A stretch of 20,562 nucleotides of DNA from a virus. Made by a program: the position numbers and the translations under genes. This document shows, piece by piece, positions 1,382 through 13,408 of the stretch. The notes beneath the pieces were generated by a model that saw nothing but the letters and a program-made list of their open reading frames with translations, made no database searches and was not told where the DNA came from. Numbering within the stretch: the stretch's first letter is position 1; each line of letters starts with the position of its first letter. The stretch covers positions 1 through 20,562 of the IMG/VR virus record IMGVR_UViG_3300022200_007389. One strand, given 5' to 3'.

Positions 1382-1520
1382 GATCCATTTCCTCTGGATA
1401 ATCTTCATGGCCGCAATACGGGCATTTAAGCTTCTGCAACACGAAATCCCCGATGCTCCACCACATTGAACACTTCATGCACATGAAATGATGCAGTTGT
1501 TCGACGCTGTACTTAATCAT
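1374..1520 (-). CDS. Small zinc-ribbon protein (48 aa)
   Basis: Encodes 48 residues starting MIKYSVEQLHHFMCMKCSMW. Cys pairs CMKC (about 14-17) and CPYC (about 33-36) suggest a second zinc ribbon, different in sequence from the one that follows. The start has GGTGAT about 4-9 nt upstream and overlaps the stop of the preceding membrane peptide. The stop overlaps the start of the 44-residue zinc-ribbon gene (ATGAGTGA). The cysteines and the chain of overlaps support it as a real gene; no function can be assigned. Confidence 0.7.
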   Translation of the reverse strand: MIKYSVEQLHHFMCMKCSMWWSIGDFVLQKLKCPYCGHEDYPEEMDHE

Positions 1521-1632
1521 CAAAATCACCAAAAAAATGACGATAGAACAGATTAATCGCTAAAACCGCCACAAGTGGTAGGGCAATCAACAAAAACGCC
1601 GCTATGCTTAAAAATTTAAGAATTTCGTGCAT
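1513..1632 (-). CDS. Single-span membrane peptide (39 aa)
   Basis: A 39-residue peptide with one hydrophobic stretch of about 20 residues (FLSIAAFLLIALPLVAVLAI, residues 7-26), then a short tail with basic residues and an acidic end (FGDFDD). It should insert once in the inner membrane. Its stop overlaps the start of the 48-residue zinc-ribbon gene. A tiny membrane peptide could be a holin-like, superinfection-exclusion or leader peptide, but nothing here decides between these. Confidence 0.5.
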   Translation of the reverse strand: MHEILKFLSIAAFLLIALPLVAVLAINLFYRHFFGDFDD

Positions 1633-1634
1633 AA

Positions 1635-1694
1635 TCACCACGCCCAATAAAAAACAACAGATGCAATCAATACAAAAACCACAACATTATTCAC
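1635..1694 (-). CDS. Possible 19-aa hydrophobic peptide, GTG start
   Basis: A GTG codon inside the last codons of the dUTPase gene opens a 19-residue reading frame, almost entirely hydrophobic (VVVFVLIASVVFYWAW), ending 2 nt before the start of the next membrane peptide. The tight packing fits the operon style here, but it is short, starts with GTG and lacks a strong ribosome site. It may be an artefact. Confidence 0.22.
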   Translation of the reverse strand: MNNVVVFVLIASVVFYWAW

Positions 1695-2136
1695 CAGTGC
1701 TTCCAAAGCCACCCTCCCCGCGTTCGGTTTCTTGACTGAATGATTCAACTTCGGTGAAATAGCTCAGACTGGTTAACGCCGGCGCAATCATCAATTGCAC
1801 GACACGAGCATCCGGTTGAATGGTGACAATTTCATTCGATAAATTAATTAACGTTGCTAAAATCTCACCCTGATAGTCTGCGTCAATGATTCCAATTCCG
1901 TTGGCTAAACTAATCCCACGAGCACCCCAGCTTGAACGGATCGCCAACTGACCCATTAACGACCTGTTTTTAATAAACATTGCAATGCCAGTCGATAGCT
2001 TAAAAATTTGACCCGGATACAACGTCAGCGGTTCATCAATCATCGCGTGTAAATCCACCGCCGCGCTATCTTTGCTTCCGCGTGTTAATTTAGCGCGCGC
2101 GTCTAATTTCTTAAATTCGATTCTGTGTATTTGCAT
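1687..2136 (-). CDS. dut: dUTP diphosphatase (dUTPase)
   Basis: Hydrolyses dUTP to dUMP and pyrophosphate, keeping uracil out of phage DNA and supplying dUMP for thymidylate synthesis. It is a trimeric cytoplasmic enzyme. All five family motifs are recognisable: I, SAAVDLHA (about 24-31, slightly divergent from AGxDL); II, IRSSWGARG (about 67-75); III, GIGIIDADYQGEI (about 80-92), with the catalytic Asp; IV, RVVQLMI (about 111-117); and V, the C-terminal arm RGEGGFGSTG. About 149 residues is the normal length. Two adjacent ATGs exist (2139 and 2136); the second is better spaced from GGGGG. It overlaps the stop of the DUF6378-like gene. Confidence 0.95.
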   Translation of the reverse strand: MQIHRIEFKKLDARAKLTRGSKDSAAVDLHAMIDEPLTLYPGQIFKLSTGIAMFIKNRSLMGQLAIRSSWGARGISLANGIGIIDADYQGEILATLINLSNEIVTIQPDARVVQLMIAPALTSLSYFTEVESFSQETERGEGGFGSTGE

Positions 2137-2510
2137 CATTCCCCCGTCAATTCTTTATCCACCAGCGTGGCGTAACCGGCAATATCCCGCCATGAATCAA
2201 AATAATCCGGATCACCATTGAGAATACGCCCGATCTTATGCGCAATCATTTCTAACGCTTCGGTTTGATACGGGGCCAAATCATTCCAGCGCCGTCCGCT
2301 TTGCATCACGATTTTGATGTTTTGCGTCAAAACCGCATGGTCGCAGAAATCACCGTACCGATTGCCACGTTCTTTCAGCGTCGCTTCCAACTCGCTGTCT
2401 TGTTTCATCTTCGACTCATAACGCCATGCTTCTTCTGTCATTTCAATCCTCGGTACGTTGTACAAGTTCACCGGCGGCAACCAAAAATCAGGCCACTTAA
2501 TGCTCATCAT
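2136..2510 (-). CDS. DUF6378-like phage protein
   Basis: A 124-residue protein. The segment from about 46 to 120 (KERGNRYGDFCDHAVLTQNI, then EALEMIAHKIGRILNGDPDY and DSWRDIAGYATLV) matches a pattern I associate with DUF6378, common in phage and prophage nucleotide-metabolism or replication regions. The biochemical role is not known. The conserved E..D/H..D residues in helices recall all-alpha NTP pyrophosphohydrolases, and the dUTPase neighbour fits that, but this link is inference. Start codons at 2510 or 2507 are equally possible. It overlaps the neighbours at both ends. Confidence 0.8.
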   Translation of the reverse strand: MMSIKWPDFWLPPVNLYNVPRIEMTEEAWRYESKMKQDSELEATLKERGNRYGDFCDHAVLTQNIKIVMQSGRRWNDLAPYQTEALEMIAHKIGRILNGDPDYFDSWRDIAGYATLVDKELTGE

Positions 2511-2658
2511 CTAAACGACTGACTAGCAAATCGACTGCAAAAACGATTTGTTCAAAAATCTGGCTGGTAAAATCATCCCCGCTTCGCATCAAATACCCCT
2601 CAACCTGCGATAGCACCCGCACAATATCCATCGCTTCTTTTCGATCCAGCTCAATCAT
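2497..2658 (-). CDS. Small acidic protein of unknown function (53 aa)
   Basis: Encodes 53 residues, from MIELDRKEAMDIVRVLSQVE to a strongly acidic LVSRLDDEH. It appears all-helical, with an amphipathic pattern and no known motif. Its start overlaps the stop of the 21-residue membrane peptide (ATGA type), and its end overlaps the DUF6378-like gene by 14 nt. Consistent overlaps in a compact operon are the main evidence. I do not recognise the family. Confidence 0.6.
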   Translation of the reverse strand: MIELDRKEAMDIVRVLSQVEGYLMRSGDDFTSQIFEQIVFAVDLLVSRLDDEH

Positions 2659-2720
2659 AAATTAAACATCCCCCATAAAATCCCAATTGCAATCGCTGAC
2701 ACCCACACACACACGGCCAT
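2655..2720 (-). CDS. Tiny membrane peptide (21 aa)
   Basis: The rusA stop codon and this ATG overlap (TGATG). The frame gives 21 residues, MAVCVWVSAIAIGILWGMFN and a final Leu, nearly all hydrophobic, enough for one membrane span. The stop overlaps the next gene's ATG. It closes a gap that would otherwise be the only unused stretch in this part of the operon. Very short, so confidence is limited. Confidence 0.4.
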   Translation of the reverse strand: MAVCVWVSAIAIGILWGMFNL

Positions 2721-3073
2721 CAGCAAATGACCTTCAAACACAACTCGATTCTCGGATTTGTCTTGTCCGGTTTTTCTCTTTTGATCCACAATTCCTCCAC
2801 TTGCTTGTCATCCACCCACACCCCCGCCAGCGTTAACGCATCAAACACCGCTTTTGGGTAATTATCTAAATCTCGTTTCCTTCTATCCTTCGGGAACACC
2901 CGCATAGACACCGATACCGGCTCACTTAAACCTGGCGCCACTTTACCCAGTAATTCCACCATCGTTTTTTTATACGCCTTGCCCTCCGGACTGATCACCG
3001 TATGCCCCCTAAAATGGCGGTAATAGCGGTTATTGCTCGGTGGGATCGGGATCGATGCCTCAAAGGTGGTCAT
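2720..3073 (-). CDS. rusA: RusA-type Holliday junction resolvase
   Basis: A 117-residue dimeric endonuclease that cuts Holliday junctions symmetrically. In phages it resolves branched replication and recombination intermediates before packaging. The N-terminus has the typical IPIPPSNNRYYRH strand. The active-site region RRKRDLDNYPKAVFDAL (about 64-80) followed by GVWVDDKQV (84-92) carries the Asp residues at 68, 70 and 88/89 and the Lys at 74, equivalent to the essential acidic residues and lysine of E. coli RusA. Length is standard. It partners logically with the RecE/RecT genes of the other operon. The start overlaps the previous gene by 14 nt. Confidence 0.94.
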   Translation of the reverse strand: MTTFEASIPIPPSNNRYYRHFRGHTVISPEGKAYKKTMVELLGKVAPGLSEPVSVSMRVFPKDRRKRDLDNYPKAVFDALTLAGVWVDDKQVEELWIKREKPDKTNPRIELCLKVIC

Positions 3074-3272
3074 ACAGTTGTAGATTGATGTAATCGTTAA
3101 ACGTATCCTGACGCGCCACGGTCAGCGGATCAGGTGATTCATACAGACAACTGGCTAAACGAATCGCCACCCGTTCTGCAAACGCTTCTCGCACCGCATA
3201 ATTCGGCGCTGGCCGGCCCGCTTTTTTACAGCGAGCCACAAACCAGGCAATGTCTTGTTCCCAGGCGTCCAT
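3060..3272 (-). CDS. Hypothetical helical protein (70 aa)
   Basis: A 70-residue protein beginning MDAWEQDIAWFVARCKKAGR. It looks helical, with many Ala, Arg and Glu residues, and carries no recognised motif. ATG at 3272 was chosen over an in-frame TTG at 3278. An AGG lies about 9 nt upstream. The gene begins right after the HNH gene stop and overlaps rusA by 14 nt. No function can be assigned; a partner for RusA or a small nucleic-acid-binding protein are possibilities only because of position. Confidence 0.65.
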   Translation of the reverse strand: MDAWEQDIAWFVARCKKAGRPAPNYAVREAFAERVAIRLASCLYESPDPLTVARQDTFNDYINLQLYDHL

Positions 3273-3274
3273 GA

Positions 3275-3751
3275 TCAAAAACCTATGGCATCATTTTCTT
3301 TATGCCATGCTCGATGACATTCAGAACATAACCATCGAACAGACAATGGTTGATTGTAATCATCATGATGACCTTCAATCCTCACTCCCGTCTTTCCGCA
3401 TTCAGAACACATTTTTTGTTTCATTAAATTTCCCTTCTTAATCGCATTATTTACCTGATTAATCACTTGTCGTTTTTTCGAATTATTTAAAACCCATTTT
3501 CTTTTTGCCCTGTTATGGGCCTCCTTGCCCTGTTCTGTATTTGAATAGGATTGTCTGGCTTCCACTCTATCTGGATTGTTTGCCCTGCTTCTGTCATATT
3601 CAAGATAATAATCTAAGTTTTTAAGTCGATTTTCTTGAGTATCTTTTTTATTGCATTCCTTACACTTGTTTAAATGACCATCACCCATAGCCTTATGTTT
3701 ATAAAAATCATTTAATGGTTTTTTCTCATTACACTTAAAACAAGTTTTCAT
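3275..3751 (-). CDS. HNH-type zinc-finger protein, AT-rich insertion
   Basis: A 158-residue protein with two Cys-rich ends. The N-terminus (MKTCFKCNEKKPLNDFYKHK, then CKEC) is a zinc-ribbon found in many phage HNH proteins. The C-terminus has MCSECGKTG, IEGHHDDYNQPLSV and LCSECHRAWH, an HNH-like layout with HH-D and two CxxC pairs. The middle (about 40-105) is basic with many Asn and Lys codons and probably binds DNA. Base composition is clearly more AT-rich than in the genes on either side, so it may be a later arrival (homing-type or moron gene). ATG at 3751 follows AGGTG by 6 nt; GTG at 3760 is less likely. It may be a nicking or homing endonuclease, or a non-catalytic DNA-binding protein. 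Confidence 0.8.
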   Translation of the reverse strand: MKTCFKCNEKKPLNDFYKHKAMGDGHLNKCKECNKKDTQENRLKNLDYYLEYDRSRANNPDRVEARQSYSNTEQGKEAHNRAKRKWVLNNSKKRQVINQVNNAIKKGNLMKQKMCSECGKTGVRIEGHHDDYNQPLSVRWLCSECHRAWHKENDAIGF

Positions 3752-3802
3752 CCTATTCACCTAAAATCATTTAATTTTTTAACCGTCGCTAAATGTAACG
3801 AC

Positions 3803-4111
3803 TTAGTTAAAAGGTATATCATCTTCAAAGTCTTCATCTTTCGCCGGTGCGGATTCTGATCCATTGCTTTTTGCCGGTGCATCGTCATCGTCAAAAATCG
3901 ACACCATCAAGTTATCGCGGATGTCTTTGCCGTTTTGACGGTTCATGATGTTTTGCAGCATCAAACAACCGGCCAGATTCACCGTCGGGTCAATCAACAC
4001 AAACTCGTTATCGTCTTTTTTGATGATTGATCCCAAACGCACATAGCGCCCCTTTTTCTCCCCGTCTCGGTTTGTGTATTCACCGGTTTTAATCACTAAG
4101 CGTTTAGCCAT
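3803..4111 (-). CDS. SSB-like single-stranded DNA-binding protein
   Basis: A 102-residue protein beginning MAKRLVIKTGEYTNRDGEKK. The first 75 residues look beta-rich, with an IKTGEY..RDGEKKGRYVRLG pattern seen in small phage ssDNA-binding-like proteins. A flexible Ala/Ser/Lys segment follows, then an acidic tail EDFEDDIPFN. This resembles the DDDIPF tail with which bacterial SSB recruits partner proteins, with an added Asn at the end. It is therefore probably a ssDNA-binding protein that recruits replication or recombination factors. ATG at 4111 has AAGG at a suitable distance; an upstream TTG at 4138 would add nine residues and is unlikely. It overlaps the previous gene by 8 nt. Confidence 0.68.
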   Translation of the reverse strand: MAKRLVIKTGEYTNRDGEKKGRYVRLGSIIKKDDNEFVLIDPTVNLAGCLMLQNIMNRQNGKDIRDNLMVSIFDDDDAPAKSNGSESAPAKDEDFEDDIPFN

Positions 4112-4385
4112 TGAGTGTGCCTTTTTTGCGTGGAGCAAATCGCCCCTGTTTTAAAATTAACTCGCCGTTCATTTCGACCGCCAGCGCCTCCGGTTTCCCG
4201 AAGGTCGCATTGAAAGCGGTTAAAAACTCAGCGAGTGGTGGTTCTTCGGTTTGTATCCGGCTCCAGACCTCGGCCCGATTTGTGCGTTCAGCCTGTACCG
4301 CCTGTGCAGCGGCTTCGGCTTCTCGCTCGGCCTTGATTCGGGCTTTGGCTTGGAGTCGGGTTAAGCTTTCTTGCAGACTATCCAT
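4104..4385 (-). CDS. Hypothetical protein with N-terminal coiled coil
   Basis: A 93-residue protein. Residues 1-50 are rich in Ala, Glu, Arg and Gln (LQAKARIKAEREAEAAAQAV) and should form a helix or coiled coil. The C-terminal half (PPLAEFLTAFNATFGKPEAL, then GRFAPRKKG) ends in basic residues. The start is well supported by AAGGAG 5 nt upstream, inside the last codons of the HTH gene. The next gene starts within its last codons. I do not recognise a family; a small accessory protein of replication is the simplest reading from context. Confidence 0.65.
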   Translation of the reverse strand: MDSLQESLTRLQAKARIKAEREAEAAAQAVQAERTNRAEVWSRIQTEEPPLAEFLTAFNATFGKPEALAVEMNGELILKQGRFAPRKKGTLNG

Positions 4386-4662
4386 GCATCTCCTTCAAAA
4401 TGGCATCCGCTAAATCCATGCTGAACTCAACCCCGAATTTATCAATGATCTTTTCAGCGGCGGTTGTGGGTTTCGTGTACTGCGTGATCCGATAGCCATC
4501 CACTTTGCGTTTAGGTTTTTGTTCCATTTTTGAAGTTATAACTTCATTTTTGGAACAATCCCTATTGATGGTTGCAACACCAACACCCAACACCTCAGCC
4601 GCTTCCCGTTGAGTCATGCCGTCATTTATAACTTCTATTTGGATTTCCTGAAAAATCTTCAT
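4378..4662 (-). CDS. Small helix-turn-helix protein
   Basis: About 94 residues if started at ATG 4662 (MKIFQEIQIEVINDGMTQRE). Residues 16-34, GMTQREAAEVLGVGVATINR, read clearly as a helix-turn-helix, like those of sigma-type or ParB-like proteins. After a basic linker (KPKRKVDG) comes a helical end, KIIDKFGVEFSMDLADAILK. An upstream ATG at 4725 would add 21 hydrophobic residues lying fully inside the preceding gene, so I prefer the shorter form, which still overlaps that gene by 41 nt. It probably binds DNA. The target is unknown, although the adjacent methyltransferase and nuclease-like genes make it a possible controller of that group. Confidence 0.7.
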   Translation of the reverse strand: MKIFQEIQIEVINDGMTQREAAEVLGVGVATINRDCSKNEVITSKMEQKPKRKVDGYRITQYTKPTTAAEKIIDKFGVEFSMDLADAILKEMHG

Positions 4663-5185
4663 AAATGGCCGCCCATAAATCACGTCTAGGCACAAACACA
4701 CATTCGGAATGGTAATTATTTCCATTGCTTCTATATGTTTTTTGTTTTGCCTTCTTATAAACTTTTGACCATGCTGTAACTCGTTTAGAAAAAGCAGCCA
4801 ACAACATAGGAAACGGAATCAACATCCAACGCCCTGTCTCTTTCCAAAACCATAAAATATAATCTGTCCTTTTTTCCTGGTTTAACGTCCAACCTTTGAT
4901 ATTTTTTTCGACAACCGAAAATGTTTCTAAGGCAATATCATCAAATCCTTTGAGCGCCCAATCTTCTTCTCTAACTTTACAATCAATACCTAAATGCTTT
5001 CCGCTTTCATGCTCAACCCAAAAGTCAACGCCATTCCGATCATTCTTCTCGTGTGATGGGTTTACATTAAGCGCACCTGGAATCTGATCTAACAGTATTT
5101 TTTCAATGGATATGTTTTCAGAAGCACCTTGACTCATTGCCAGTCTTTCATCAAATTCATAAACAATCGGCTTACTTAATTCCAT
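4622..5185 (-). CDS. PD-(D/E)XK nuclease-like protein
   Basis: A 187-residue protein starting MELSKPIVYEFDERLAMSQG. The centre, NDRNGVDFWVEHESGKHLGI followed by DCKVRE (residues 48-73), fits a PD-(D/E)XK active site: Asp54 on one strand, then Asp68-x-Lys70 on the next. An N-terminal helix carries Glu residues, and a later WFWKETGRWMLIPFP segment (about 112-126) looks like the following core strands. Family knowledge links this fold to restriction, repair and junction nucleases, so endonuclease activity is inferred. The start has GGGGGG 3-4 nt upstream and overlaps the end of the adenine methyltransferase gene by 14 nt; a longer in-frame start would lie well inside that gene. It may be the cutting partner of the methyltransferase, or a DNA-processing nuclease. 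Confidence 0.62.
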   Translation of the reverse strand: MELSKPIVYEFDERLAMSQGASENISIEKILLDQIPGALNVNPSHEKNDRNGVDFWVEHESGKHLGIDCKVREEDWALKGFDDIALETFSVVEKNIKGWTLNQEKRTDYILWFWKETGRWMLIPFPMLLAAFSKRVTAWSKVYKKAKQKTYRSNGNNYHSECVFVPRRDLWAAIYEDFSGNPNRSYK

Positions 5186-6314
5186 TTTCCCCCCACGAAG
5201 ACCAGTCTTTTCTATCTCCCCTTGAAAACAGTTCCAAATATGGCCCATGACTACAAGACTCGACCAAATCATAAAATTCAACCGGTTTTGAGCTATGGCC
5301 ATTTTCACCTCTCGGTGCATCAAATCGAGTTCCAACATCTTTCCTTTTCAGTTCCAATGATCCTTTAACACCAAACAAAACATGCTCAGTTTGCCCCCTA
5401 AAATAATTTCCCATACCAAATGATGGTTTGACCCAAGTTAAACATGTGATATATCTAAAGCCCCATTTTTCTAATAGCTGAAAACCTTTTGGCAATGACC
5501 TATTTGTGATCCATAAATAGATATGCGAATCATCCATTGCCAAATCGTTAACCGGTAAATCCATCAATTTATGAATAGACAATGTTTGATAATCCGGTTT
5601 TGCCCGTCCTAATTGATCGTTATCCCCTTCATCTCCCCAATCCCATGGCGGGTCAATGACAATCGTTGGAAACTTTGCATCTATCTTTAAAATGTCAGAA
5701 TCAGCACGAGACTCAATTTTTTCCCGGTTTTCTTGCCTTTTTTGCTCACGCTGTTCTTCTTTCATTTCGCGTTTTGCTTGTGGCAATGTTTTTTCACCAT
5801 CTTTGATTTGCTTAAAAACTTCAGGTCTTTCTTGCTGAATTTTCTTTGCATCGGACACATACTTGCCACCAACTCCAACGGCTTTGGCGGCTTGGTCGCG
5901 TGACTTGGTTTGTTCTTTCGGTTCTGGTGTGGATTCACTTGGTGGCAAAATTGCCACAATGTTATCTTTCTTCAAATCAGTCCGCTCACCCTGCCTTTTC
6001 TTCGCCTCGGCTTCAAACAACGGCAACAATTCAACAGCGGCGGTGGCTTTTTGGCTTTGGCTCAAATGGCGACGTTTTAAATTCAAAGAAACAACAAAAT
6101 TTAATGGATCATCCCCTTCATAATCTTTAGTGACAGGATCAACACCCACATCTTGACAGGCTTTAAACCTATTTCTTCCGTCTAAGATTTTTCCTTCATA
6201 GAGACAGATCGGCTCTAGCAATCCGTTTTGTTTAATGTCTTGTTTTAATGCAACAAACTCATCAGGAGACATTAACGGAAAAATATCAGCGTATGGATGT
6301 GTTTTATATTGCAT
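5172..6314 (-). CDS. ParB-like / MT-A70 adenine N6-methyltransferase fusion
   Basis: A 380-residue two-domain protein. Residues 1-90 form a ParB/sulfiredoxin-like domain (PLMSPDEFVALKQDIKQNGL, then GKILDGRNRFKAC). The middle (about 100-205) is a charged linker with a KorB-like helix-turn-helix region (DQAAKAVGVGGKYVSDAKKI). Residues 215-370 are an MT-A70 type methyltransferase with catalytic DPPW at 221-224, IYLWITN near 266-272 and a late SSKPVEFYDLVE motif. It should methylate adenine N6 in DNA using S-adenosylmethionine. Similar fusions are common in phages, where they can protect DNA against host restriction or alter regulation. The start is preceded by AGGA at 7 nt, and the gene is overlapped by a 21-codon upstream frame. 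Confidence 0.9.
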   Translation of the reverse strand: MQYKTHPYADIFPLMSPDEFVALKQDIKQNGLLEPICLYEGKILDGRNRFKACQDVGVDPVTKDYEGDDPLNFVVSLNLKRRHLSQSQKATAAVELLPLFEAEAKKRQGERTDLKKDNIVAILPPSESTPEPKEQTKSRDQAAKAVGVGGKYVSDAKKIQQERPEVFKQIKDGEKTLPQAKREMKEEQREQKRQENREKIESRADSDILKIDAKFPTIVIDPPWDWGDEGDNDQLGRAKPDYQTLSIHKLMDLPVNDLAMDDSHIYLWITNRSLPKGFQLLEKWGFRYITCLTWVKPSFGMGNYFRGQTEHVLFGVKGSLELKRKDVGTRFDAPRGENGHSSKPVEFYDLVESCSHGPYLELFSRGDRKDWSSWGENGIK

Positions 6315-6369
6315 AACTATTTCCTGTCATTGTTTCAATTCCGGTTGTTTGATATATTTCTTCTGTCAT
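6304..6369 (-). CDS. 21-codon leader frame before the methyltransferase
   Basis: A reading frame of 21 residues (MTEEIYQTTGIETMTGNSYA, then Ile) with an excellent ribosome site, GAGGTG, 6 nt before its ATG. Its stop lies 8-10 nt inside the methyltransferase gene. The arrangement fits translational coupling: ribosomes ending here would reinitiate at the methyltransferase ATG. Peptide function, if any, is unknown. Confidence 0.4.
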   Translation of the reverse strand: MTEEIYQTTGIETMTGNSYAI

Positions 6370-6402
6370 TAGTTACACCTCGTGTGTGTAGTTGATGAAA
6401 GT

Positions 6403-6432
6403 CTGCGGCGGTGATGACTGCACTTGCCGCAG
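6403..6432 (-). other. Inverted repeat in the P-methyltransferase gap
   Basis: Arms CTGCGGC (6403-6409) and GCCGCAG (6426-6432) are perfect 7-bp complements with a 16-nt loop, just after the P-like gene stop. No T run follows on the minus strand, so it does not look like a full intrinsic terminator. It may be an mRNA processing or stability hairpin. Confidence 0.35.
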
Positions 6433-6435
6433 GCG

Positions 6436-6876
6436 TTATAAAACCGCCTTAATCCCCCGAATCGCCTCCAAAGCCGCTTCCTTGTTCCTCGGTTTCGGCA
6501 ATCCGCGTTTAAAATACCGATACGCCGCGCCCTTATGTCGCCAGTCTTCTGGGTTTCTCGGTTTTGCCAATTCGATAAACTCCGCAATCGACGGGGGCCA
6601 GGTTTTTTCTTTGCGGCAACGGTACAAACCCAGCTTGATTTCATCACCGGTTAATTCCGCTAAGGCTTCGCCCCATTCCTGGCGATGCTTGACCATATCG
6701 GTCTCCGATTCAAACTGCTGCAAAAAGCGATTGCCATAGATGGCTTTAAACCGGTCAAAGAGAGCCGTTTGCCAATGCTCCGGCAATGGCTTCTCGGTGG
6801 TGCTGGTCGATGGCCGCGCTGATTTTTGATCGCTGATCGCGTCGGGTTTCTTGATGAGTTGTTGAATGGGTTTCAT
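6436..6876 (-). CDS. Lambda P-like replication protein (helicase loader)
   Basis: A 146-residue protein. The segment EHWQTALFDRFKAIYGNRFL, then QEWGEALAELTGDEIKLGLY and KTWPPSIAEFIELAKP (about 34-108), follows the pattern of the phage lambda P family, including the characteristic TWPP. By family knowledge, P captures host DnaB helicase and delivers it to the origin bound by O. It is shorter than lambda P (233 residues), as in many phages. The gene lies directly after the O-like gene and overlaps it by about 122 nt in another frame. The start has GGAAAG about 6 nt upstream, and there is no good later start before the conserved region, so the long overlap seems real. Confidence 0.78.
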   Translation of the reverse strand: MKPIQQLIKKPDAISDQKSARPSTSTTEKPLPEHWQTALFDRFKAIYGNRFLQQFESETDMVKHRQEWGEALAELTGDEIKLGLYRCRKEKTWPPSIAEFIELAKPRNPEDWRHKGAAYRYFKRGLPKPRNKEAALEAIRGIKAVL

Positions 6877-7666
6877 AATGCTTTCCGTTGACTTTGTTTC
6901 TGTCTTGTTCTTTGGCTAACCAGTTCGTGATAAATGCCTTAACGCCGGTTTTCGTCTTTCGGCGTTTTTGATTTGAATCTAACCAGCCAATCATCTTGCG
7001 GATTTCTTGCGACACATCGACCGCCGGATAAAGCTCGGTGTAGTAGTCAATGTCGTGCTGGGTAATCGCGTGGTAGGTGTGTTTTTGATTGAGCGGTAAA
7101 TTAAAAATAATCGGGCTGTCGTCTTTGTCGGTCTTGAGCGGTAGCTCAGGACAAGAATTCTCCGTAGGAGAATTACTCTCTGGAATCAGGTTAAGGGAAT
7201 CAGGAATCAGGGCGTTCTTGTCTGATTCTTGCACCGTGCTTGCACCGTTCTTGTCTTGTGCTACGGTTTCACCCTTCTTAAAAAGCCTTATTTTTCCTGT
7301 GCATAGACCATTTTTTCCCCGCTCGTGCGAAGTATAAAAACCGTCCTTATCAGGTAAGTCTGAATCTTGTTCTTTACCGTGTGGTGTTTGATGTTCTAAA
7401 AAATTTAGGATCACAATCACTTTTTTTCCGTCTGCGACATACCTTTCGATAAATCCCCAATGCTCTAACTCTTGCAAGCACTGTTCTATATCCATATTGT
7501 CATACGGGAATAATTCGCCTTTGATCCGTTTAGGCCGATCTTCTAAACGACCCTCTCTGTCAGCCAGCATCCACAGCCCTGGGAACATTAATCTCGTCCA
7601 TAAAGAACACTCGGCCAAATCTTCATTTTTATAAAACCCTGGTTTTATATTTCTACTTCTAGCCAT
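6755..7666 (-). CDS. Lambda O-like replication initiator
   Basis: A protein of about 303 residues. Residues 1-95 (MARSRNIKPGFYKNEDLAEC, LMFPGLWMLADREGRLEDRP, then QELEHWGFIERY) form the winged-helix N-terminal domain common in phage replication initiators and replisome organisers. A low-complexity Ser/Pro/Asn/Glu linker spans about 145-190. The C-terminal part (DIDYYTELYPAVDVSQEIRK, VKAFITNWLAKEQ) resembles the DnaD/O-type helicase-loading region. It should bind the phage origin and recruit the P-like protein encoded next. I chose ATG 7666 because family members begin MAR..NIKPGF; ATG 7675 is also open. DNA repeats in the linker-coding part suggest an internal origin, as in lambda. Confidence 0.8.
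   Translation of the reverse strand: MARSRNIKPGFYKNEDLAECSLWTRLMFPGLWMLADREGRLEDRPKRIKGELFPYDNMDIEQCLQELEHWGFIERYVADGKKVIVILNFLEHQTPHGKEQDSDLPDKDGFYTSHERGKNGLCTGKIRLFKKGETVAQDKNGASTVQESDKNALIPDSLNLIPESNSPTENSCPELPLKTDKDDSPIIFNLPLNQKHTYHAITQHDIDYYTELYPAVDVSQEIRKMIGWLDSNQKRRKTKTGVKAFITNWLAKEQDRNKVNGKHYETHSTTHQETRRDQRSKISAAIDQHHREAIAGALANGSL
7155..7248. other. Candidate replication origin inside the O-like gene
   Basis: In about 95 bp there is an 8-bp perfect inverted repeat, AATTCTCC (7156-7163) and GGAGAATT (7167-7174). Three copies of GGAATCAGG follow at 7182, 7196 and 7203 (the last two overlapping by 2 bp), then two copies of CTTGCACCGT at 7228 and 7239 in an 11-bp tandem. They lie in the part coding for the flexible linker of the initiator, the same relative place as the lambda iterons. 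The repeats are seen directly; origin function is inferred. Confidence 0.45.
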
Positions 7667-8210
7667 GTTCACCATCCGCTTCTTTTCTTCTTTGGCGAAT
7701 CTTTTTCAACCTTTCTTTTGTATATTCTTTGAAATCATCTATGCATCCGGATATTCGATCTGGGTATTTATCAATAATGAAATACAACAAATTTTTTACA
7801 TCTGCTGGATATAAATCATTTTCAATAAGTGCTTTTGTAAAAGCAGGGCTACATGTGCCTAAATCGGTAGCGTCAATGCAATTTTGAAAGGGTAAATAAT
7901 CACACTCTCTACAATAGCCAAATAGTCTTATTACAATATCTATTGCCTCATACACGTCGATATTAAAAAATTCTCTTTCTTTGTTAATACGCAGGTGGCT
8001 TATTTCGTCATGCACATCTTCTTCTAGCGAATAACAGTCTTCGCAATAAATCTCAAATTCGAGATTAAAAGGCATAGGGATACCTGATTTTCCTGCGCTA
8101 TATAACTCCTTAGCCCTATTTCTCCCACCGTGCTTTGATCTGCCAATTTTCACAATACCTGGCATTGCCGGATTGCTCAGGATGTAAACGTATCCGTTAT
8201 ATTTATTCAT
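7659..8210 (-). CDS. T5orf172 (GIY-YIG-like) domain protein
   Basis: A 183-residue protein starting MNKYNGYVYILSNPAMPGIV. Residues 5-90 follow the T5orf172/MUG113 pattern, a GIY-YIG-related domain: GYVYILSNP, then PGIVKIGRS, an Arg helix, a PMPFNLEFEIYCEDC strand, EEDVHDEISHLR and EREFF. The C-terminal part has further Cys residues (GYCRECDYLPFQNC) and ends in a basic helix, KERLKKIRQRRKEADGEHG. This domain is frequent in phage regulatory and DNA-binding proteins, and nuclease activity is uncertain. The gene is more AT-rich than its neighbours, which suggests later insertion between the early regulator and the replication genes. ATG 8210 has GGTGAT upstream; a GTG at 8219 is possible. Confidence 0.78.
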   Translation of the reverse strand: MNKYNGYVYILSNPAMPGIVKIGRSKHGGRNRAKELYSAGKSGIPMPFNLEFEIYCEDCYSLEEDVHDEISHLRINKEREFFNIDVYEAIDIVIRLFGYCRECDYLPFQNCIDATDLGTCSPAFTKALIENDLYPADVKNLLYFIIDKYPDRISGCIDDFKEYTKERLKKIRQRRKEADGEHG

Positions 8211-8213
8211 CGT

Positions 8214-8266
8214 TATCACCGTTCTAACACCGTAAAAAAATAATGCGGAAATGCGTTACGGTGATA
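8214..8266. promoter_or_regulatory. Inverted CACCGT motifs before the T5orf172 gene
   Basis: TATCACCGT (8214-8222) faces its inverse ACGGTGATA (8258-8266). Inside lies another inverted pair, CACCGTAA (8228-8235) and TTACGGTG (8256-8263). The half-site resembles the TATCACCG half of lambda operators. The outer copy overlaps the ribosome site of the T5orf172 gene. It could be an operator or an mRNA hairpin; no promoter is obvious. Confidence 0.35.
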
Positions 8267-8306
8267 CGCACGTTCGGGAGCTACCCTATCCGCATTAGTT
8301 AAAAAC

Positions 8307-8516
8307 TCAGTTCTGATCGTTCTTAGAGTTCTGTAGATTTCCAAACGCTTTTGACATAAGCTCAAACTGACGCTGTTTTTCATTGAGGTATTGGTCAATG
8401 ATGTGTTCGCCCATTTCAGATAACGACTTGTTTTCCAGCTCCGCTAAAACCAGCACCCTGGCTTTCTTCTCAGATGAAATGTGGATATTGATGGATTCAG
8501 TTTTTTTATCGCTCAT
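8307..8516 (-). CDS. Ribbon-helix-helix-like small regulator
   Basis: A 69-residue protein, first gene after the tR1-like terminator. Residues 5-45 (KTESINIHISSEKKARVLVL, then ENKSLSEMGEHIIDQYL) have the strand-helix-helix form of Arc/MetJ-type proteins: a short beta strand of alternating polar residues, then two helices separated by a Ser turn. It probably binds DNA as a dimer. Its place, right after cro and its terminator, is that of cII in lambdoid phages, but the fold is not that of CII, so an analogous role is only a guess. About 90 nt without a gene follow before the next start. Confidence 0.65.
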   Translation of the reverse strand: MSDKKTESINIHISSEKKARVLVLAELENKSLSEMGEHIIDQYLNEKQRQFELMSKAFGNLQNSKNDQN

Positions 8517-8527
8517 CAGTCAGTTCC

Positions 8528-8553
8528 AAAAAAAAGACCGCATCCTTGCGGTT
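8528..8553 (-). terminator. Intrinsic terminator after the Cro-like gene
   Basis: Read on the minus strand: stem ACCGCA, loop AGGA, stem TGCGGT, one C, then eight T. It is a clean Rho-independent terminator 50 nt after the Cro-like gene and just before the next gene, matching the position of lambda tR1. Genes beyond it would then need read-through or antitermination; no N- or Q-like gene is seen. Confidence 0.85.
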
Positions 8554-8604
8554 AACGAAGGTCATATGAAACGCGCCGACTATTACCGCCGCCGGCTGGG
8601 CGGT

Positions 8605-8808
8605 TTATTCTGATAACTCTTTACACACGCTAACGAGTTTGTAAGCGTGGAGCGGTGGCACAAATTGCCGCTTTCTTTTTATCCAAATCGAAATATTGTT
8701 CGGATCGATACCCAGCAACCGACTCAGATTGGCTTTACTTCCAGCAAATTCAATGGCCCGGTCAACTCTCACTTTGGGCGCTTCAATAGGGGTTTGTATC
8801 TCTTTCAT
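8605..8808 (-). CDS. Cro/YdaS-like repressor
   Basis: A 67-residue helix-turn-helix protein. The core, RAIEFAGSKANLSRLLGIDP then NNISIWIKRKRQFVPPLHAY (about 17-57), fits the Cro/YdaS family: a short helix, a Ser-Arg-Leu-Leu-Gly turn and a recognition helix with Asn-Ile-Ser-x-Trp. The first minus-strand gene after the divergent promoter region, it is best read as the Cro-type early repressor binding the intervening palindrome. No CI-like gene sits on the other side of the promoters, where lambda carries one. It could equally be the only repressor of this region. Confidence 0.82.
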   Translation of the reverse strand: MKEIQTPIEAPKVRVDRAIEFAGSKANLSRLLGIDPNNISIWIKRKRQFVPPLHAYKLVSVCKELSE

Positions 8809-8838
8809 CTAAACTTCAAAAAAATTAAGATCGATTCA

Positions 8839-8844
8839 ATTATA
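8839..8844 (-). promoter_or_regulatory. Leftward early promoter, -10 box
   Basis: On the minus strand TATAAT, a perfect -10 hexamer, lies about 30 nt upstream of the Cro-like ATG. No good -35 is seen at 16-18 bp; the matching stretch is AT-only. This is the likely start of the whole leftward operon. Confidence 0.55.
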
Positions 8845-8857
8845 CACAAAAGCAATT

Positions 8858-8879
8858 AAAATAAAATAAGTTTTATTTT
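8858..8879. promoter_or_regulatory. Palindrome between the divergent promoters
   Basis: AAAATAAAA (8858-8866), spacer TAAG, and TTTTATTTT (8871-8879) form a perfect 9-bp inverted repeat. It covers the -35 zone of the leftward promoter and ends 4 bp before the -35 of the rightward promoter, so one bound dimer could block both. It is a likely operator for the Cro-like protein, although AT-rich sequence makes such palindromes easier to meet by chance. Confidence 0.42.
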
Positions 8880-8883
8880 TTCT

Positions 8884-8912
8884 TTGACAAGTTATAAAAT
8901 TTATTTTAATAT
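8884..8912 (+). promoter_or_regulatory. Rightward early promoter
   Basis: A perfect -35 TTGACA (8884-8889), 17-bp spacer and -10 TAATAT (8907-8912). Transcription would begin near 8919, so the first GCANN array lies in the untranslated leader of the rightward operon. This is the clearest promoter in the window. Confidence 0.72.
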
Positions 8913-8933
8913 TTTAACCCATGGATCAGGAAA

Positions 8934-9051
8934 GCAGGGAAATGCAGGGCAGTGCATCGCACTGCATCGCAGGGCAATGCAAAGCATAGCAACTCAAAGC
9001 AACGCGGATTACCGATTCGCTGAGTCGGTAATACCGAGTCGGTTTTGACTC
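8934..9051 (+). repeat. GCANN array plus two-hairpin core, copy 1
   Basis: An interrupted 5-nt array (GCAGG, GAAAT, then ten GCANN units from 8944 to 8993) ends in TCAAA-GCAAC-GCG (8994-9006). Hairpin 1 follows: arms ATTACCGATTC (9008-9018) and GAGTCGGTAAT (9022-9032), loop GCT, 11 bp with one G-T pair. Hairpin 2: GAGTC (9036-9040) and GACTC (9047-9051). The ribosome site TGGAG of the next gene comes 2 nt later. There is no second array in this copy. It lies in the leader of the rightward transcript. Confidence 0.8.
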
Positions 9052-9064
9052 ATGGAGATATAGC

Positions 9065-9235
9065 ATGGATGCAGCTCATCACACAGGTGATTCAGCCGGG
9101 CCGATTGTCACGCAAATCCAAACCCGGCAGTCAGCGATGGAGTCACTACCTTGCAGAACGTACTCCAGCTCCAGGCGCAAACCGATTAGCCCACGTTACG
9201 GGCGGACATTCACGGCCACGGATGGCGACTTTTGA
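9065..9235 (+). CDS. Small basic protein of unknown function (56 aa)
   Basis: Encodes 56 residues, MDAAHHTGDSAGPIVTQIQT and onward, with a basic Arg-rich second half (LPCRTYSSSRRKPISPRYGR) and an acidic end. The ATG follows GGAG by about 8 nt, directly after hairpin 2 of the repeat element. Its stop (TGA) runs into GAGGAG, the ribosome site of the next gene, so the two genes look coupled. A different frame is also open here (from 9045) but has no ribosome site. I do not recognise the family. As first gene of the operon it could be an early host-takeover or regulatory peptide, but that is only from position. Confidence 0.6.
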   Translation: MDAAHHTGDSAGPIVTQIQTRQSAMESLPCRTYSSSRRKPISPRYGRTFTATDGDF

Positions 9236-9245
9236 GGAGAAGATC

Positions 9246-9509
9246 ATGGCTAAATTTGAAACGACGGTCATCGTTAATGACCAAGAACACGAGGCCGAGG
9301 TTGAGTTTTACCACCAACCCGAAGAACAACAAACACTGGAACACCCAGGCTGTGATGAAAGCGCGCATATCGAGCGCGTCATTATCTGGATCGGTGCTTT
9401 GAAGGTCGATCTGCTTGATCCCATGTACGCATGGATTCTGAACGCTGACGACCTGGCGCTGCTGGAAACCGAAGCCCTTGAATCGGTAACGGATCAGGAG
9501 TGCTACTGA
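9246..9509 (+). CDS. Hypothetical acidic protein (87 aa)
   Basis: An 87-residue, strongly acidic protein beginning MAKFETTVIVNDQEHEAEVE. The N-terminal half appears to form beta strands (FETTVIVNDQEHEAEVEFYH, then IERVIIWIGALKVDLL) and the end is helical (ADDLALLETEALES). ATG at 9246 has GAGGAG 7 nt upstream, a very good site; the in-frame extension upstream to 9045 is therefore not used. The stop overlaps the next start (TGATG). Acidic proteins of this size in early phage operons are sometimes DNA mimics or anti-defence proteins, but nothing in the sequence proves it. Confidence 0.75.
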   Translation: MAKFETTVIVNDQEHEAEVEFYHQPEEQQTLEHPGCDESAHIERVIIWIGALKVDLLDPMYAWILNADDLALLETEALESVTDQECY

Positions 9510-9718
9510 TGGACATGAGCAAAGCAACGGCCAAACAAAAAATCAATCTGGCTTTGGATGAAGTGCGTCAAGTGCTGATGGAGTTAGGCCACACAGACGC
9601 CAGAATCAATCTGGCGGAAATGGAGATCGCCGGACAGGCCGCGCTTGATCTGCTGCAACACGAAGCCATTGAAGAACAGGCCAGAATATTAACCAGTTTT
9701 AGGAGTATGTCAGCATGA
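9509..9718 (+). CDS. Hypothetical helical protein (69 aa)
   Basis: A 69-residue protein, MDMSKATAKQKINLALDEVR and onward, predicted by eye to be all helical with regular Leu/Ala/Glu spacing. The start overlaps the previous stop (TGATG) and has AGGAG 8 nt upstream; the end overlaps the next start (ATGA). No family recognised. Its place in a run of small genes before recE is typical of early phage genes of accessory function. Confidence 0.7.
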   Translation: MDMSKATAKQKINLALDEVRQVLMELGHTDARINLAEMEIAGQAALDLLQHEAIEEQARILTSFRSMSA

Positions 9719-9873
9719 CCGTCATTACACAAAAACAAGCCGACGGCTGGATGGTCGTCTGTCACAACCAAAGCAAAACCATTTTTTCACGCTGCAAAGA
9801 CAGCGACCGCAAACGGGCGTTTAAATTAGCGGCTCGTGGATTCTGGCAACTGGTCAATGGGGAACACGCATGA
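9715..9873 (+). CDS. Hypothetical small basic protein (52 aa)
   Basis: Encodes 52 residues, MTVITQKQADGWMVVCHNQS and then a basic middle (SRCKDSDRKRAFKLAARGFW). A strand followed by a helix is likely. It is joined to both neighbours by ATGA overlaps, with AGGAG about 13 nt upstream of its start. The overlaps and its composition support a real gene. I do not recognise it. Confidence 0.62.
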   Translation: MTVITQKQADGWMVVCHNQSKTIFSRCKDSDRKRAFKLAARGFWQLVNGEHA

Positions 9874-10043
9874 ATCAAAAAACCATCACAATCAAATATA
9901 CATCATACAAATCTGGACATGATCCTAAAGACATGCTGGAGCTGGTTGGCGAGATGATCGAAAAAGAAATTGATGAAGGCCATTTGAATGACGGATTCAG
10001 TTTAATCAACTGGAAAACTACAAAGGAAGCAGACCATGACTAA
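9870..10043 (+). CDS. Hypothetical small acidic protein (57 aa)
   Basis: A 57-residue protein, MNQKTITIKYTSYKSGHDPK and then MLELVGEMIEKEIDEGHLND. It looks like one strand, a long acidic helix and a terminal strand. The start overlaps the stop of the preceding gene, and it ends 8 nt inside the recE-like gene, whose ribosome site (GGAAG) lies in its last codons. Probably translated together with recE. Function unknown. Confidence 0.62.
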   Translation: MNQKTITIKYTSYKSGHDPKDMLELVGEMIEKEIDEGHLNDGFSLINWKTTKEADHD

Positions 10044-11554: not shown

Positions 11555-11773
11555 GCAGCACATAGCATTGCAGTGCACTGCATAGCAAAGCAGGGCAAGG
11601 CAAATCAAAGCAACGCGGGCAGCCGATTCACTGAGTCGGTTGTACCGAGTCGCTTTTGACTCAAGGGAAGCAGTGCAGGGCATCGCAATGCATAGCAGTG
11701 CAGCGCAGCGCAATGCAAAGCATCGCAGGGCATTTGAAAGCAACGCGACCTGAGCAAGTCACTAAAAGGCTCA
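11555..11773 (+). repeat. GCANN array plus hairpin core, copy 2
   Basis: This fills most of the 289-nt gap after recT. Array A is GCAGC, ACATA, then eight GCANN (11565-11604), TCAAA-GCAAC-GCG. Hairpin 1 has arms CAGCCGATTC (11620-11629) and GAGTCGGTTG (11633-11642), loop ACT. Hairpin 2 is GAGTC (11647-11651) and GACTC (11658-11662). Array B has thirteen GCANN (11670-11734), TGAAA-GCAAC-GCG. A third hairpin has TGAGC (11751-11755) and GCTCA (11769-11773). GGAG and the next ATG follow at 11787 and 11798. Because GCANN contains almost no stop codons in any frame, long false reading frames cross it on both strands. Confidence 0.85.
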
Positions 11774-11797
11774 TTCACTTAAAATCGGAGAAAAAAA

Positions 11798-12391
11798 ATG
11801 ATAAGAAACGCAACCATCAAAGTCATCGGCTTTCAGCCTTTATTGCAATCCAACCCAACCACAGTAGATCGCTTTCATCCGATCTCTAAACGCATGGCCG
11901 CGATTAACGCCAGAAAAACCCGCCGCACCGATGAAGATTATTTGGAATTAAGAGAGCTGGAAATCAAAGCAAAAACCTATTTTGATGAAAAACTTGGCGT
12001 CTATGTCCCAGGCAGTTGGTTAATTGAAAGCTTTGGCAAACATTCGCACGCAATGGCAAAAATTCCTAAAGCGGAAATACGCGGCTCCATGTTTGTGGCC
12101 GATAAATTAAAACTGGTTTACAGCGGTATGGATCGGGTCAAAACCTTAGAAGATATTGTCAAAAATGATGAGTTTCATCATTTGATGAATGTCAAACAAG
12201 GTCAAGTCAGAGTCATAAAAGCCTGTCCCATCTTTAACGATTGGAGCTTTGAAACCGAATTAGAATTTGATGACAAAATTGTGGATAAAACCGATATTGA
12301 TCGAATTTTTAAACATGCGGCTCGCTTAGGCGGTTATGGTGATTTTAGACCGACCTTTGGCCGCGCCAATGTGGAGATTACGCATGGTTGA
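11798..12391 (+). CDS. Conserved-looking phage protein, function unknown
   Basis: A 197-residue protein, starting 7 nt after GGAG. The N-terminus, ATIKVIGFQPLLQSNPTTVD, looks like a beta strand followed by a 'plL...' turn. A middle segment, FDEKLGVYVPGSWLIESFGK, is followed by basic helices. The end, DRIFKHAARLGGYGDFRPTF then GRANVEI, carries a G.GDfRP.fGr.. pattern that I associate with a widespread phage protein family of unknown function, often written G(I/L)GDWRPKYGRF. The fold recalls ferredoxin-like RAMP proteins but that is a guess. It overlaps the next gene by 8 nt, and the pair is bracketed by copies 2 and 3 of the repeat element. Confidence 0.72.
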   Translation: MIRNATIKVIGFQPLLQSNPTTVDRFHPISKRMAAINARKTRRTDEDYLELRELEIKAKTYFDEKLGVYVPGSWLIESFGKHSHAMAKIPKAEIRGSMFVADKLKLVYSGMDRVKTLEDIVKNDEFHHLMNVKQGQVRVIKACPIFNDWSFETELEFDDKIVDKTDIDRIFKHAARLGGYGDFRPTFGRANVEITHG

Positions 12392-12827
12392 TTTATATGA
12401 AATATTGAATGAAAAAGGGCTGATTTATTATGGATCACATTTGTCTGGCGATCTAATCCGGCACATTGCCGGCATTGAAGAAATTAAAGACGATGAGTTA
12501 AAAACAATGGATGTAAAAACCATCAGAGAGCGCATTAACACACAAGAATTAGCCGAATTAAATGTCACGGGTGCATTAAGAATGGATTTATTAGAACGTG
12601 GCATGTATTTAAAAAAAACCGGTCTCGATTACCGGATTTTATTACCGTCAGAAAATGCCGATCAAGTGAAAAGTTATCTGAAATCATCAGACAAAAAGTT
12701 AAAACGAGCGGCGTTATTACAAGCCAATACACCGAAACAAATCGGCAATAAACCCAATCAAGAAATCACCCGTTTGCAGATGAAAATGCAATCAAATCAG
12801 GAATGGGCGGATCGAATAAGTTTGTAG
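12384..12827 (+). CDS. Hypothetical phage protein, partner of 11798-12391
   Basis: A 147-residue protein starting MVDLYEILNEKGLIYYGSHL. ATG 12384 lies within the last codons of the preceding gene; an upstream in-frame start at 12336 lies inside that gene and is not needed. Residues 60-125 (ALRMDLLERGMYLKKTGLDY, RILLPSENADQVKSYLKSSD, KKLKRAALLQANTP) form a charged region with an 'R.LlPSEN..Qv..Y...sdkKlkRA..L' pattern familiar from phage early proteins. The end is basic and Gln-rich. Function unknown; a DNA- or RNA-binding role fits the charge. The repeat element begins 13 nt after its stop. Confidence 0.7.
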   Translation: MVDLYEILNEKGLIYYGSHLSGDLIRHIAGIEEIKDDELKTMDVKTIRERINTQELAELNVTGALRMDLLERGMYLKKTGLDYRILLPSENADQVKSYLKSSDKKLKRAALLQANTPKQIGNKPNQEITRLQMKMQSNQEWADRISL

Positions 12828-12839
12828 TTATTTTTGAAG

Positions 12840-13104
12840 GCAATGCAGTGCATCGCAAGGCATTGCATCGCATCGCAAAGCATCGCAAGGCATTGCATCG
12901 CAAAGCATCGCAACTCAAAGCAACGCGGGCAGCCGATTCACTGAGTCGGTTGTACCGAGTTTTTTTGAAACTCAAGGGAAGCAAGGCATCGCATCGCATT
13001 GCACCGCAGCGCATCGCATCGCATGGCAGTGCAAAGCATCGCATTGCAAAGCATCGCAGAGCATTTGAAAGCAACGCGACCTGAGCAAGTCACTAAAAGG
13101 CTCA
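12840..13104 (+). repeat. GCANN array plus hairpin core, copy 3
   Basis: The longest and most regular copy. Array A has fifteen GCANN (12840-12914), TCAAA-GCAAC-GCG. Hairpin 1 has arms CAGCCGATTC (12930-12939) and GAGTCGGTTG (12943-12952). Hairpin 2 is GAGTTT (12957-12962) and AAACTC (12968-12973), where copies 1 and 2 have GAGTC/GACTC, a paired change. Array B has seventeen GCANN (12981-13065), TGAAA-GCAAC-GCG. The third hairpin is TGAGC (13082-13086) and GCTCA (13100-13104). AGGAG and the next ATG follow at 13117 and 13127. The core and tail are almost identical to copy 2, while the arrays differ in length and in the variable bases. Confidence 0.87.
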
Positions 13105-13126
13105 TCACACTTTCACAGGAGAAAAA

Positions 13127-13408
13127 ATGGCAACAGAACAACAATTTTACGCAGCCGCACCGGGCAACTTAAAACAAAAACTGGATGAAAAAAACCAGCT
13201 AAGCGATATGAATGAATTGTTGATTGAACAGATGCAGCTTTTAGCATCGATCGATACCGATGAAGTGACGCCAGAACAACTGACCAAAGCCACACAACGG
13301 TCAGCCGCATTAGCCGCGTTAGCCGATAAGGTCATCAGTTCTGAACGATTGCTGTTTGATCAGAAAAAAGAATTTTCTATTGTTTCAACCCAGAAGTTAA
13401 TCGGATGA
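13127..13408 (+). CDS. Hypothetical helical protein (93 aa)
   Basis: A 93-residue protein starting MATEQQFYAAAPGNLKQKLD, with AGGAG 5 nt before its ATG. The sequence is helical with Gln, Leu and Glu rich stretches (MNELLIEQMQLLASIDTDEV, then SAALAALADKVISSERLLFD). Small proteins of this look, with a final '..vIssekl.ldqkk' helix, are common before HNH or terminase genes in phages and may be scaffolds or DNA-binding adaptors, but I cannot name the family. Its end overlaps the start of the first HNH gene (ATGA). Confidence 0.7.
   Translation: MATEQQFYAAAPGNLKQKLDEKNQLSDMNELLIEQMQLLASIDTDEVTPEQLTKATQRSAALAALADKVISSERLLFDQKKEFSIVSTQKLIG

Follow-up and report, generated by a model that had tools for sequence, protein, structure and literature searches.

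This locus raises the question of what the two-hairpin cores following its pentamer arrays are, and whether their fold is kept by selection. The window, i.e. the whole stretch of DNA analysed here, is the entire virus record IMGVR_UViG_3300022200_007389 (20,562 bases). Our best explanation, to which we give a probability of about 0.9, is that each core forms the structured 3' tail of a vrRNA in a phage-borne VIPR-type system, within a mostly GCA/NN clade of 44 proteins. VIPR, reported in 2026, has been proposed to be ancestral to CRISPR; in the available text of the preprint (PMC13142463) it combines a phage-encoded RAMP protein (Vipr) with an accessory gene and vrRNAs, and the systems described come from Escherichia phage SUSP1 and a Pseudomonas fulva prophage. 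According to the same text, a vrRNA carries 9-16 pentamers, in which GGY is fixed and NN varies, and then a structured tail, which is pseudoknotted in the SUSP1 clade, and NN reads double-stranded DNA with a one-nucleotide skip. A function is assigned to the cores here because of the associated genes; the first-pass annotation of this DNA gave none. The three cores (copies 1 to 3), labelled according to this reading, are located as follows.

9006-9051, plus strand: tail of vrRNA 1; hairpin 1 at 9006-9018/9022-9035 with bulged A9033, hairpin 2 at 9036-9051 (sequence and fold)
11617-11662, plus strand: tail of vrRNA 2a; hairpin 1 at 11617-11629/11633-11646, hairpin 2 at 11647-11662 (fold)
12927-12973, plus strand: tail of vrRNA 3a; hairpin 1 at 12927-12939/12943-12956, hairpin 2 at 12957-12973 (fold)

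Sequence and folds agree with the first-pass annotation on the existence of the three cores after pentamer arrays, on the position and arm sequences of all copies, and on paired changes between copy 1 and copies 2 and 3. In copy 1 the arms annotated for hairpin 1 lie at 9008-9018 and 9022-9032 around the loop GCT (9019-9021); the position stands, and the extent has to be enlarged by two pairs (GG 9006-9007 with CC 9034-9035, next to the bulged A9033). RNA folding gives 13 pairs and a bulged A for hairpin 1 in each copy, with hairpin 2 abutting without a linker. The folding z-scores of copies 1, 2 and 3 were -3.84, -3.60 and -4.01, and none of 200 shuffles was as stable. The 17-base motif at the tip has three perfect matches, all on the plus strand of the window, with 0.06 occurrences expected by chance (up to three mismatches allowed). 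Rfam scans yielded no match in the window (gathering cut-offs) or in five related loci (E <= 1).

The 17-base motif was also found in 29 viral contigs, which proved to be a false lead: apart from L022, which is 99.97% identical to window positions 1-9940 and carries the same array and core 1, no arrays were present in its context. Seven of these loci (L003, L006, L007, L012, L019, L027 and L028) have in common an array-less element consisting of the same 17-base hairpin and a second hairpin, the latter being GGTGCAATGTCGCACC in six of them.

Between copy 1 and copies 2 and 3, two pairs of hairpin 1 are changed on both sides (U-A to A-U and U-A to C-G) and two further pairs become G-U, while hairpin 2 of copy 3 is altered on both sides. 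Because hairpin 1 is identical in copies 2 and 3, the evidence within the window amounts to one comparison, with two double changes in hairpin 1 and one in hairpin 2. By itself this covariation is thin, and the support comes from the tails of other phages. The first-pass annotation had proposed that the folded structure is under selection and had named a covariance model and a covariation statistic among its checks; both were run, and the larger alignments show covariation, the opposite of the outcome that was to speak against the proposal.

Alignment A3, made from sequence alone, comprised 26 tails drawn from the window and 11 contigs. Hairpin 1 was 93.8% paired, compared with 66.2% in shuffled and at most 56.1% in slid alignments, a percentage that is favoured by the choice of the seed by eye from clear examples; 11 of the 13 pairs showed double-sided changes. 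The covariation score was 0.725 (shuffled, 0.209 ± 0.024) and was reached by none of 500 shuffles. Alignment A4, again by sequence only, took a single model match per contig (23 contigs), and 11 of its 23 rows came from non-seed contigs. Here hairpin 1 was 90.5% paired versus 64.2% when shuffled, with double-sided changes once more in 11 of 13 pairs, and the score was 0.710 versus 0.219 ± 0.027 for shuffled and at most 0.202 for slid alignments; the bulge shifts the window row by one position, and this misplacement counts against covariation. The covariance model found tails at E < 1e-3 in non-seed contigs, including L150, L162, L166, L169, L182 and L191-L194. (Note that its match at 8999-9051, the tail of vrRNA 1, is a seed sequence, as are the tails of vrRNAs 2a and 3a.) A U-G wobble at the third pair from the loop was kept in 25 of 26 tails in A3 and in 21 of 23 contigs in A4. 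That the tail is a folded RNA kept by selection is strongly supported by these alignments. Tandem repeats and imperfect palindromes in an early region could also act as DNA, i.e. as iterons, an origin, or cruciform or transposon ends, but the conservation of a U-G pair at one position (21 of 23 contigs) suits RNA better than a DNA palindrome and the arrays lie almost solely on the sense strand of the gene, so that we regard a DNA element as extremely improbable.

A further interaction is predicted between the 5' flank of hairpin 1 and the loop of hairpin 2.

11607-11611, plus strand: AAAGC, 5' side of a predicted pseudoknot, with the partner GCTTT (11652-11656) in the hairpin-2 loop (fold with flank, and cross-contig permutation)

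In the minimum-energy fold of copy 2 including its 5' flank, TCAAAGC pairs with GCTTTTGA around the hairpin-2 loop; drawn as a nested structure this pairing excludes hairpin 2, whereas the pseudoknot drawing keeps both. Within the window the full five-pair AAAGC/GCTTT pseudoknot is confined to copy 2. By eye, the partners in flank and loop change together among phages: AAAGC/GCTTT (window copy 2, L161, L089), AAATA/TATTT (L037), AGAGA/TCTCT (L132), CATC/GATG (L049, L161) and CAAC/GTTG (L071). For a statistical comparison the model gave 132 rows, those in seed contigs matching by construction, of which 70 with E <= 0.0048 were taken; rows repeated because a contig occurs under two locus ids were left out, as were one incomplete row and its twin. 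Removal of one row without hairpin 2 and of three duplicates left 66, and a stricter parse retained 56 tails from 23 loci, some of them closely related (L037/L072, L033/L125); it dropped five rows scored without hairpin 2 and five that lacked the hairpin-1 fold. In the 56 tails the longest Watson-Crick stretch joining flank and loop averaged 3.61, compared with 2.75 ± 0.10 when loops were swapped between contigs (0 of 2000 permutations as high), although at least four retained rows (L191, L169, L150 and L162 at 4642) have a misplaced hairpin 2, which should weaken rather than help the test. With one tail per contig the values were 3.51 and, for exchanged loops, 2.75 ± 0.17. Judged from these sequence comparisons, the alternative pairing that is conserved is that of the 5' flank with the hairpin-2 loop, a predicted pseudoknot. 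The switch originally suggested, in which GAGTC of hairpin 1 pairs with GACTC of hairpin 2, did not hold up: it is complete in only two of the 56 parsed cores, both from the window.

The arrays and the two genes next to them are arranged as follows.

8934-9003, plus strand: variable region of vrRNA 1, 14 pentamers in register, 12 of them GCANN
11555-11614, plus strand: variable region of vrRNA 2a, 12 pentamers, 10 GCANN
11670-11744, plus strand: variable region of vrRNA 2b, 15 pentamers, 14 GCANN, then a different, weakly folding tail at 11735-11774
11798-12391, plus strand: Vipr-like protein gene, 197 aa, phrog_4652, predicted Cas7/RAMP fold
12384-12827, plus strand: putative accessory (vap-like) gene, 147 aa, mostly helical, without significant PDB match
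12840-12924, plus strand: variable region of vrRNA 3a, 17 pentamers, 16 GCANN
12981-13075, plus strand: variable region of vrRNA 3b, 19 pentamers, 18 GCANN, then the alternative tail of 2b at 13066-13105

The array of vrRNA 1 ends in the units TCAAA GCAAC, which form the constant 5' portion of the tail. Starts of (GCANN)5 number 43 on the plus strand of the window and none on the other strand, and none was found for the reversed pattern. A structured 3' tail after the repeats, as in VIPR, is observed. The alternative 40-base tail common to arrays 2b and 3b stands directly before gene starts and folds no better than shuffles; the two arrays stop shortly before the genes 11798-12391 and 13127-13408 begin. 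In other loci, too, the last tail before a gene differs. Long open frames arise from the array of copy 3 on either strand (12803-13084, plus; 12766-13074, minus); they probably reflect the repeat rather than genes. Besides the pair 11798-12391/12384-12827, the neighbours in the window are exonuclease VIII-like and RecT-like recombination genes and two HNH proteins, and vrRNA 1 stands about 2.7 kb away from the protein genes, upstream of the recE/recT-like genes. A tandem repeat scan and a reading of the window revealed no direct-repeat/spacer CRISPR array, and Pfam and PHROG scans of ten window proteins revealed no cas family.

A scan of viral contigs for (GCANN)8 gave at least 118 stretches. 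Among the 117 loci examined, a relative of 11798-12391 occurred in 22 and one of 12384-12827 in 23 (the underlying table additionally counts the window and two of its own fragments), and recT and the other window genes tested showed no comparable sharing among these loci. An origin as chance or satellite repeats was considered and rejected: many of the stretches are plain satellites (GCACA, GCAGG) that lack the two genes, and only heterogeneous arrays were used; these often precede two hairpins. The reverse search by protein yielded 44 loci, several from contigs already found by the array scan, and in 37 of the 44 sense-strand GCANN arrays lie within 1000 bases upstream or 1500 bases downstream of the gene. 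There were 678 GCANN triples in the 102.8 kb near the gene versus 8 in the remaining 127.0 kb, and 9 on the other strand. The exceptions are L159 and its twin L160 (degenerate arrays, clear cores), L155 (core-like hairpins by eye), L191 (core matches), L190 (GAANN arrays), and L156 and L175, for which two array counts gave no array (L175 has a weak core match only, E 0.97). The arrays travel with the two adjacent genes across unrelated phages.

This linkage bears on a reading of the core as a cis-acting antitermination or processing element unrelated to the protein, like HK022 put. As far as the available descriptions go, putRNAs are about 70 nt long and form two adjacent stem-loops in the phage early region, which resembles the cores, one of which is found upstream of recE/recT-like genes; putRNA, by the same descriptions, acts on RNA polymerase and is without arrays or a partner protein gene. 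The cores studied here follow guide-like arrays, with up to five in a row (L168), and are linked to a Cas7-fold gene in many phages, which makes a put-like element highly unlikely.

Heterogeneous GCANN arrays without a recognised Vipr-like gene in the stretch examined were also seen, with T-run spacers in L059, L061 and L113 and with CCATCGCCA-like spacers in L081, L092 and L133; these are possibly further types.

The 197-aa product matched phrog_4652, a family listed with unknown function. Pfam gave no family for the window copy, and weak unrelated rows in one or two of 19 relatives. Its AlphaFold2 model (pLDDT 90.8, from 19 aligned sequences) was compared with known structures using Foldseek, and all 50 matches listed were effector-complex subunits of CRISPR types III or VII (best E 1.8e-5). 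VIA-align gave Z 12.1 to type VII Cas7 (8yhe_F; 152 residues, rmsd 3.5) and Z 11.8 to the Csm chain 9ash_F. The product is accordingly modelled with a Cas7/Csm3 fold. The likeness to the Cas7 proteins of class 1 CRISPR (Csm3, type VII Cas7) lies in this predicted fold, with Z 10-12 over about 150 residues, whereas sequence identity in the VIA rows is 8-14% and the window is without a CRISPR array; moreover, class 1 systems disrupt pairing at every sixth position in the available text of the preprint (PMC13142463), compared with a window repeat of five.

By tblastn the protein is 32.4% identical to a product of coliphage SUSP1 (E 9e-24, 95% of the query covered). Among annotated phages 129 records were matched, mostly felixounavirus-type phages at about 32%, with further matches in Vibrio, Listonella, Gordonia, Mycobacterium and Pseudomonas phages. 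In wV8, likewise of the felixounavirus type, the SUSP1-type homologue is flanked by GGTNN arrays. From the fold and these flanking arrays we infer that the matched SUSP1 gene is the vipr of the preprint (PMC13142463). The window thus encodes, as VIPR systems do, a phage protein with a predicted RAMP fold, and this protein is homologous to the SUSP1 gene product.

For the accessory protein, Foldseek found no match at E <= 0.001. Its profile matched 44 of 54 loci with distinct Vipr-like proteins, some of which had been used to build it, and gave no match to the neighbour gene of wV8 (SUSP1 group) or to any GGY locus. The vap families differ by VIPR type in the preprint (PMC13142463).

The repeat triplet varies among homologous loci. 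Counted as period-five triples, GGT occurs in wV8 (12) and GGC in LittleE (25), Trine (10) and L130 (47), the GGY array of MakoManhole is weaker (4 triples), and no clear array was found in Medea1 (1 triple), prophiBWHA-1 (0) or the Azospirillum plasmid (2). Positions 3602-3960 of L190, which separate the Vipr-like gene from the accessory one, hold GAANN arrays (34 triples) with hairpin-like stretches scattered among them. In a tree of 53 proteins (L089 was omitted as a fragment, and eleven loci had too few period-five triples to be labelled), the window falls in a group of 44 rows with support 100/100, behind a branch of 2.02. The group contains 35 GCA rows, 8 with too few triples to label and one GAA (L190); all labelled GGY rows lie outside it. 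L039 has GCA triples, yet stands outside on a long branch. Since the window and most of its clade have GCA, where GGY is found in wV8, LittleE, Trine, MakoManhole and L130, the system is called a GCA/NN variant and not a plain member of VIPR.

In actinophages with GGCNN arrays, the hairpin unit resembles a tRNA acceptor/T-arm minihelix (TTCGA loop, GG in a D-loop-like spacer), as in L199 (1651-1691 and about 2983-3143), L197 (3692-3735) and L201 (3850-3890). Rfam at E <= 1 gave no tRNA or tmRNA match for these units, and their folds differ: that of L199 is as expected, L197 has an extra small hairpin and L201 is without the T-arm.

Compared with VIPR as presented in the available text of the preprint, the window shares a phage-borne RAMP-fold protein of about 20 kD with an adjacent putative accessory gene, pentamers with a fixed triplet and hypervariable NN in several arrays around the protein genes, and a structured 3' tail with a pseudoknot, here predicted. 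It differs in the triplet (GCA instead of GGY), in a tail of two hairpins with a covarying flank-loop pseudoknot, in an accessory protein not detectably related to the wV8 neighbour, and in having one guide RNA remote from the protein genes. Repeat RNAs of the TRAP type likewise combine a triplet with about two variable nucleotides; in the window the linked protein has a predicted Cas7 fold. The preprint distinguishes seven types with GGY/NN 'or a related consensus' (fig. S17), and neither 'GCA' nor 'covariation' appears in its main text (PMC13142463); in a literature search no second VIPR paper was among the matches listed. The kind of system is therefore already covered by the preprint, which admits a related consensus, and the GCA variant is unnamed in its main text. 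That the GCA/NN clade is a separate, undescribed VIPR type, recognising GCA (GAA in L190) instead of GGY, with a distinct two-hairpin tail and covarying pseudoknot and with guides that may be located away from the protein genes (in the window, upstream of recE/recT-like genes), is a tentative proposal, somewhat short of an even chance.

Among close relatives GCA is constant and NN and repeat number vary, with flanks, tails and genes alike (identity around the arrays 92% for L057/L119, 85-89% for L074/L144 and 95-98.5% for L037/L072). Tandem pentamers with a fixed triplet and variable NN, as in VIPR, are present. For each of the five guides in the window, targets were sought in all viral contigs, using its eight central units as an exact query with a one-nucleotide skip. 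Guides A to E gave 5, 13, 3, 74 and 36 eight-unit matches, none with a convincing extension into the remaining units (about 20-34% of the flanking bases matched, chance being about 25%), and under these settings no target of the five guides was found in the viral contigs. For 124 guides against the collected loci there was no excess over shuffled guides at skips of 0, 1, 2, 4 and 5, nor at skips of 0, 1, 2 and 4 when more loci were included.

Guide D matches L252 over 12 contiguous units, but in an acidic coding stretch with a biased pattern, and this match is not counted. The eight middle NN pairs of guide C match a RecT-family gene (L205, 3391-4446, minus strand; PHROG RecT, E 2.7e-46) at 4274-4296, with the skipped base at codon position 3; its flanks do not match, so that it is no more than a lead. 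A 19/20 match at a skip of two within L161 is one case among 124 guides and several skips. A codon-wobble signature is unsupported, since NN composition is fitted better by independent bases (r 0.718) than by codon positions 1-2 in both senses (0.521).

These searches bear on the reading that the RNP of the GCA clade no longer targets foreign DNA and that the Vipr-like protein and the vrRNAs form an autoregulatory or RNA-directed particle. It would agree with the missing DNA targets and with arrays placed directly before genes of the same locus, as are 2b and 3b; against it, NN turns over between close relatives while GCA is kept, as expected of guides, and targets were sought in a single virus collection, with exact eight-unit cores and a single skip length. 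We consider such a particle unlikely.

With the architecture, covariation, gene linkage, predicted Cas7 fold and homology to the SUSP1 gene established here, a VIPR-like mode of working is well supported. Each guide RNA would consist of a run of GCANN followed by a two-hairpin tail, in which the hairpin-2 loop may pair back to the bases immediately 5' of hairpin 1. The Vipr-like protein would cover the pentamers with one subunit on each repeat, holding GCA and keeping NN free for reading the target, and the neighbour gene 12384-12827 would be the accessory. By analogy with the SUSP1 work, an RNP would form with the tail as end cap, and DNA may be targeted with a one-nucleotide skip, against competing phages.

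The natural variation of the triplet (GCA, GGC, GGT, GAA) beside homologous proteins with a predicted Cas7 fold offers a comparative handle on repeat recognition by RAMP proteins, and the covarying tail provides a structural model for finding guides in unannotated phages. If the one-skip code also holds for GCA/NN, the guides of many more phages would become readable.
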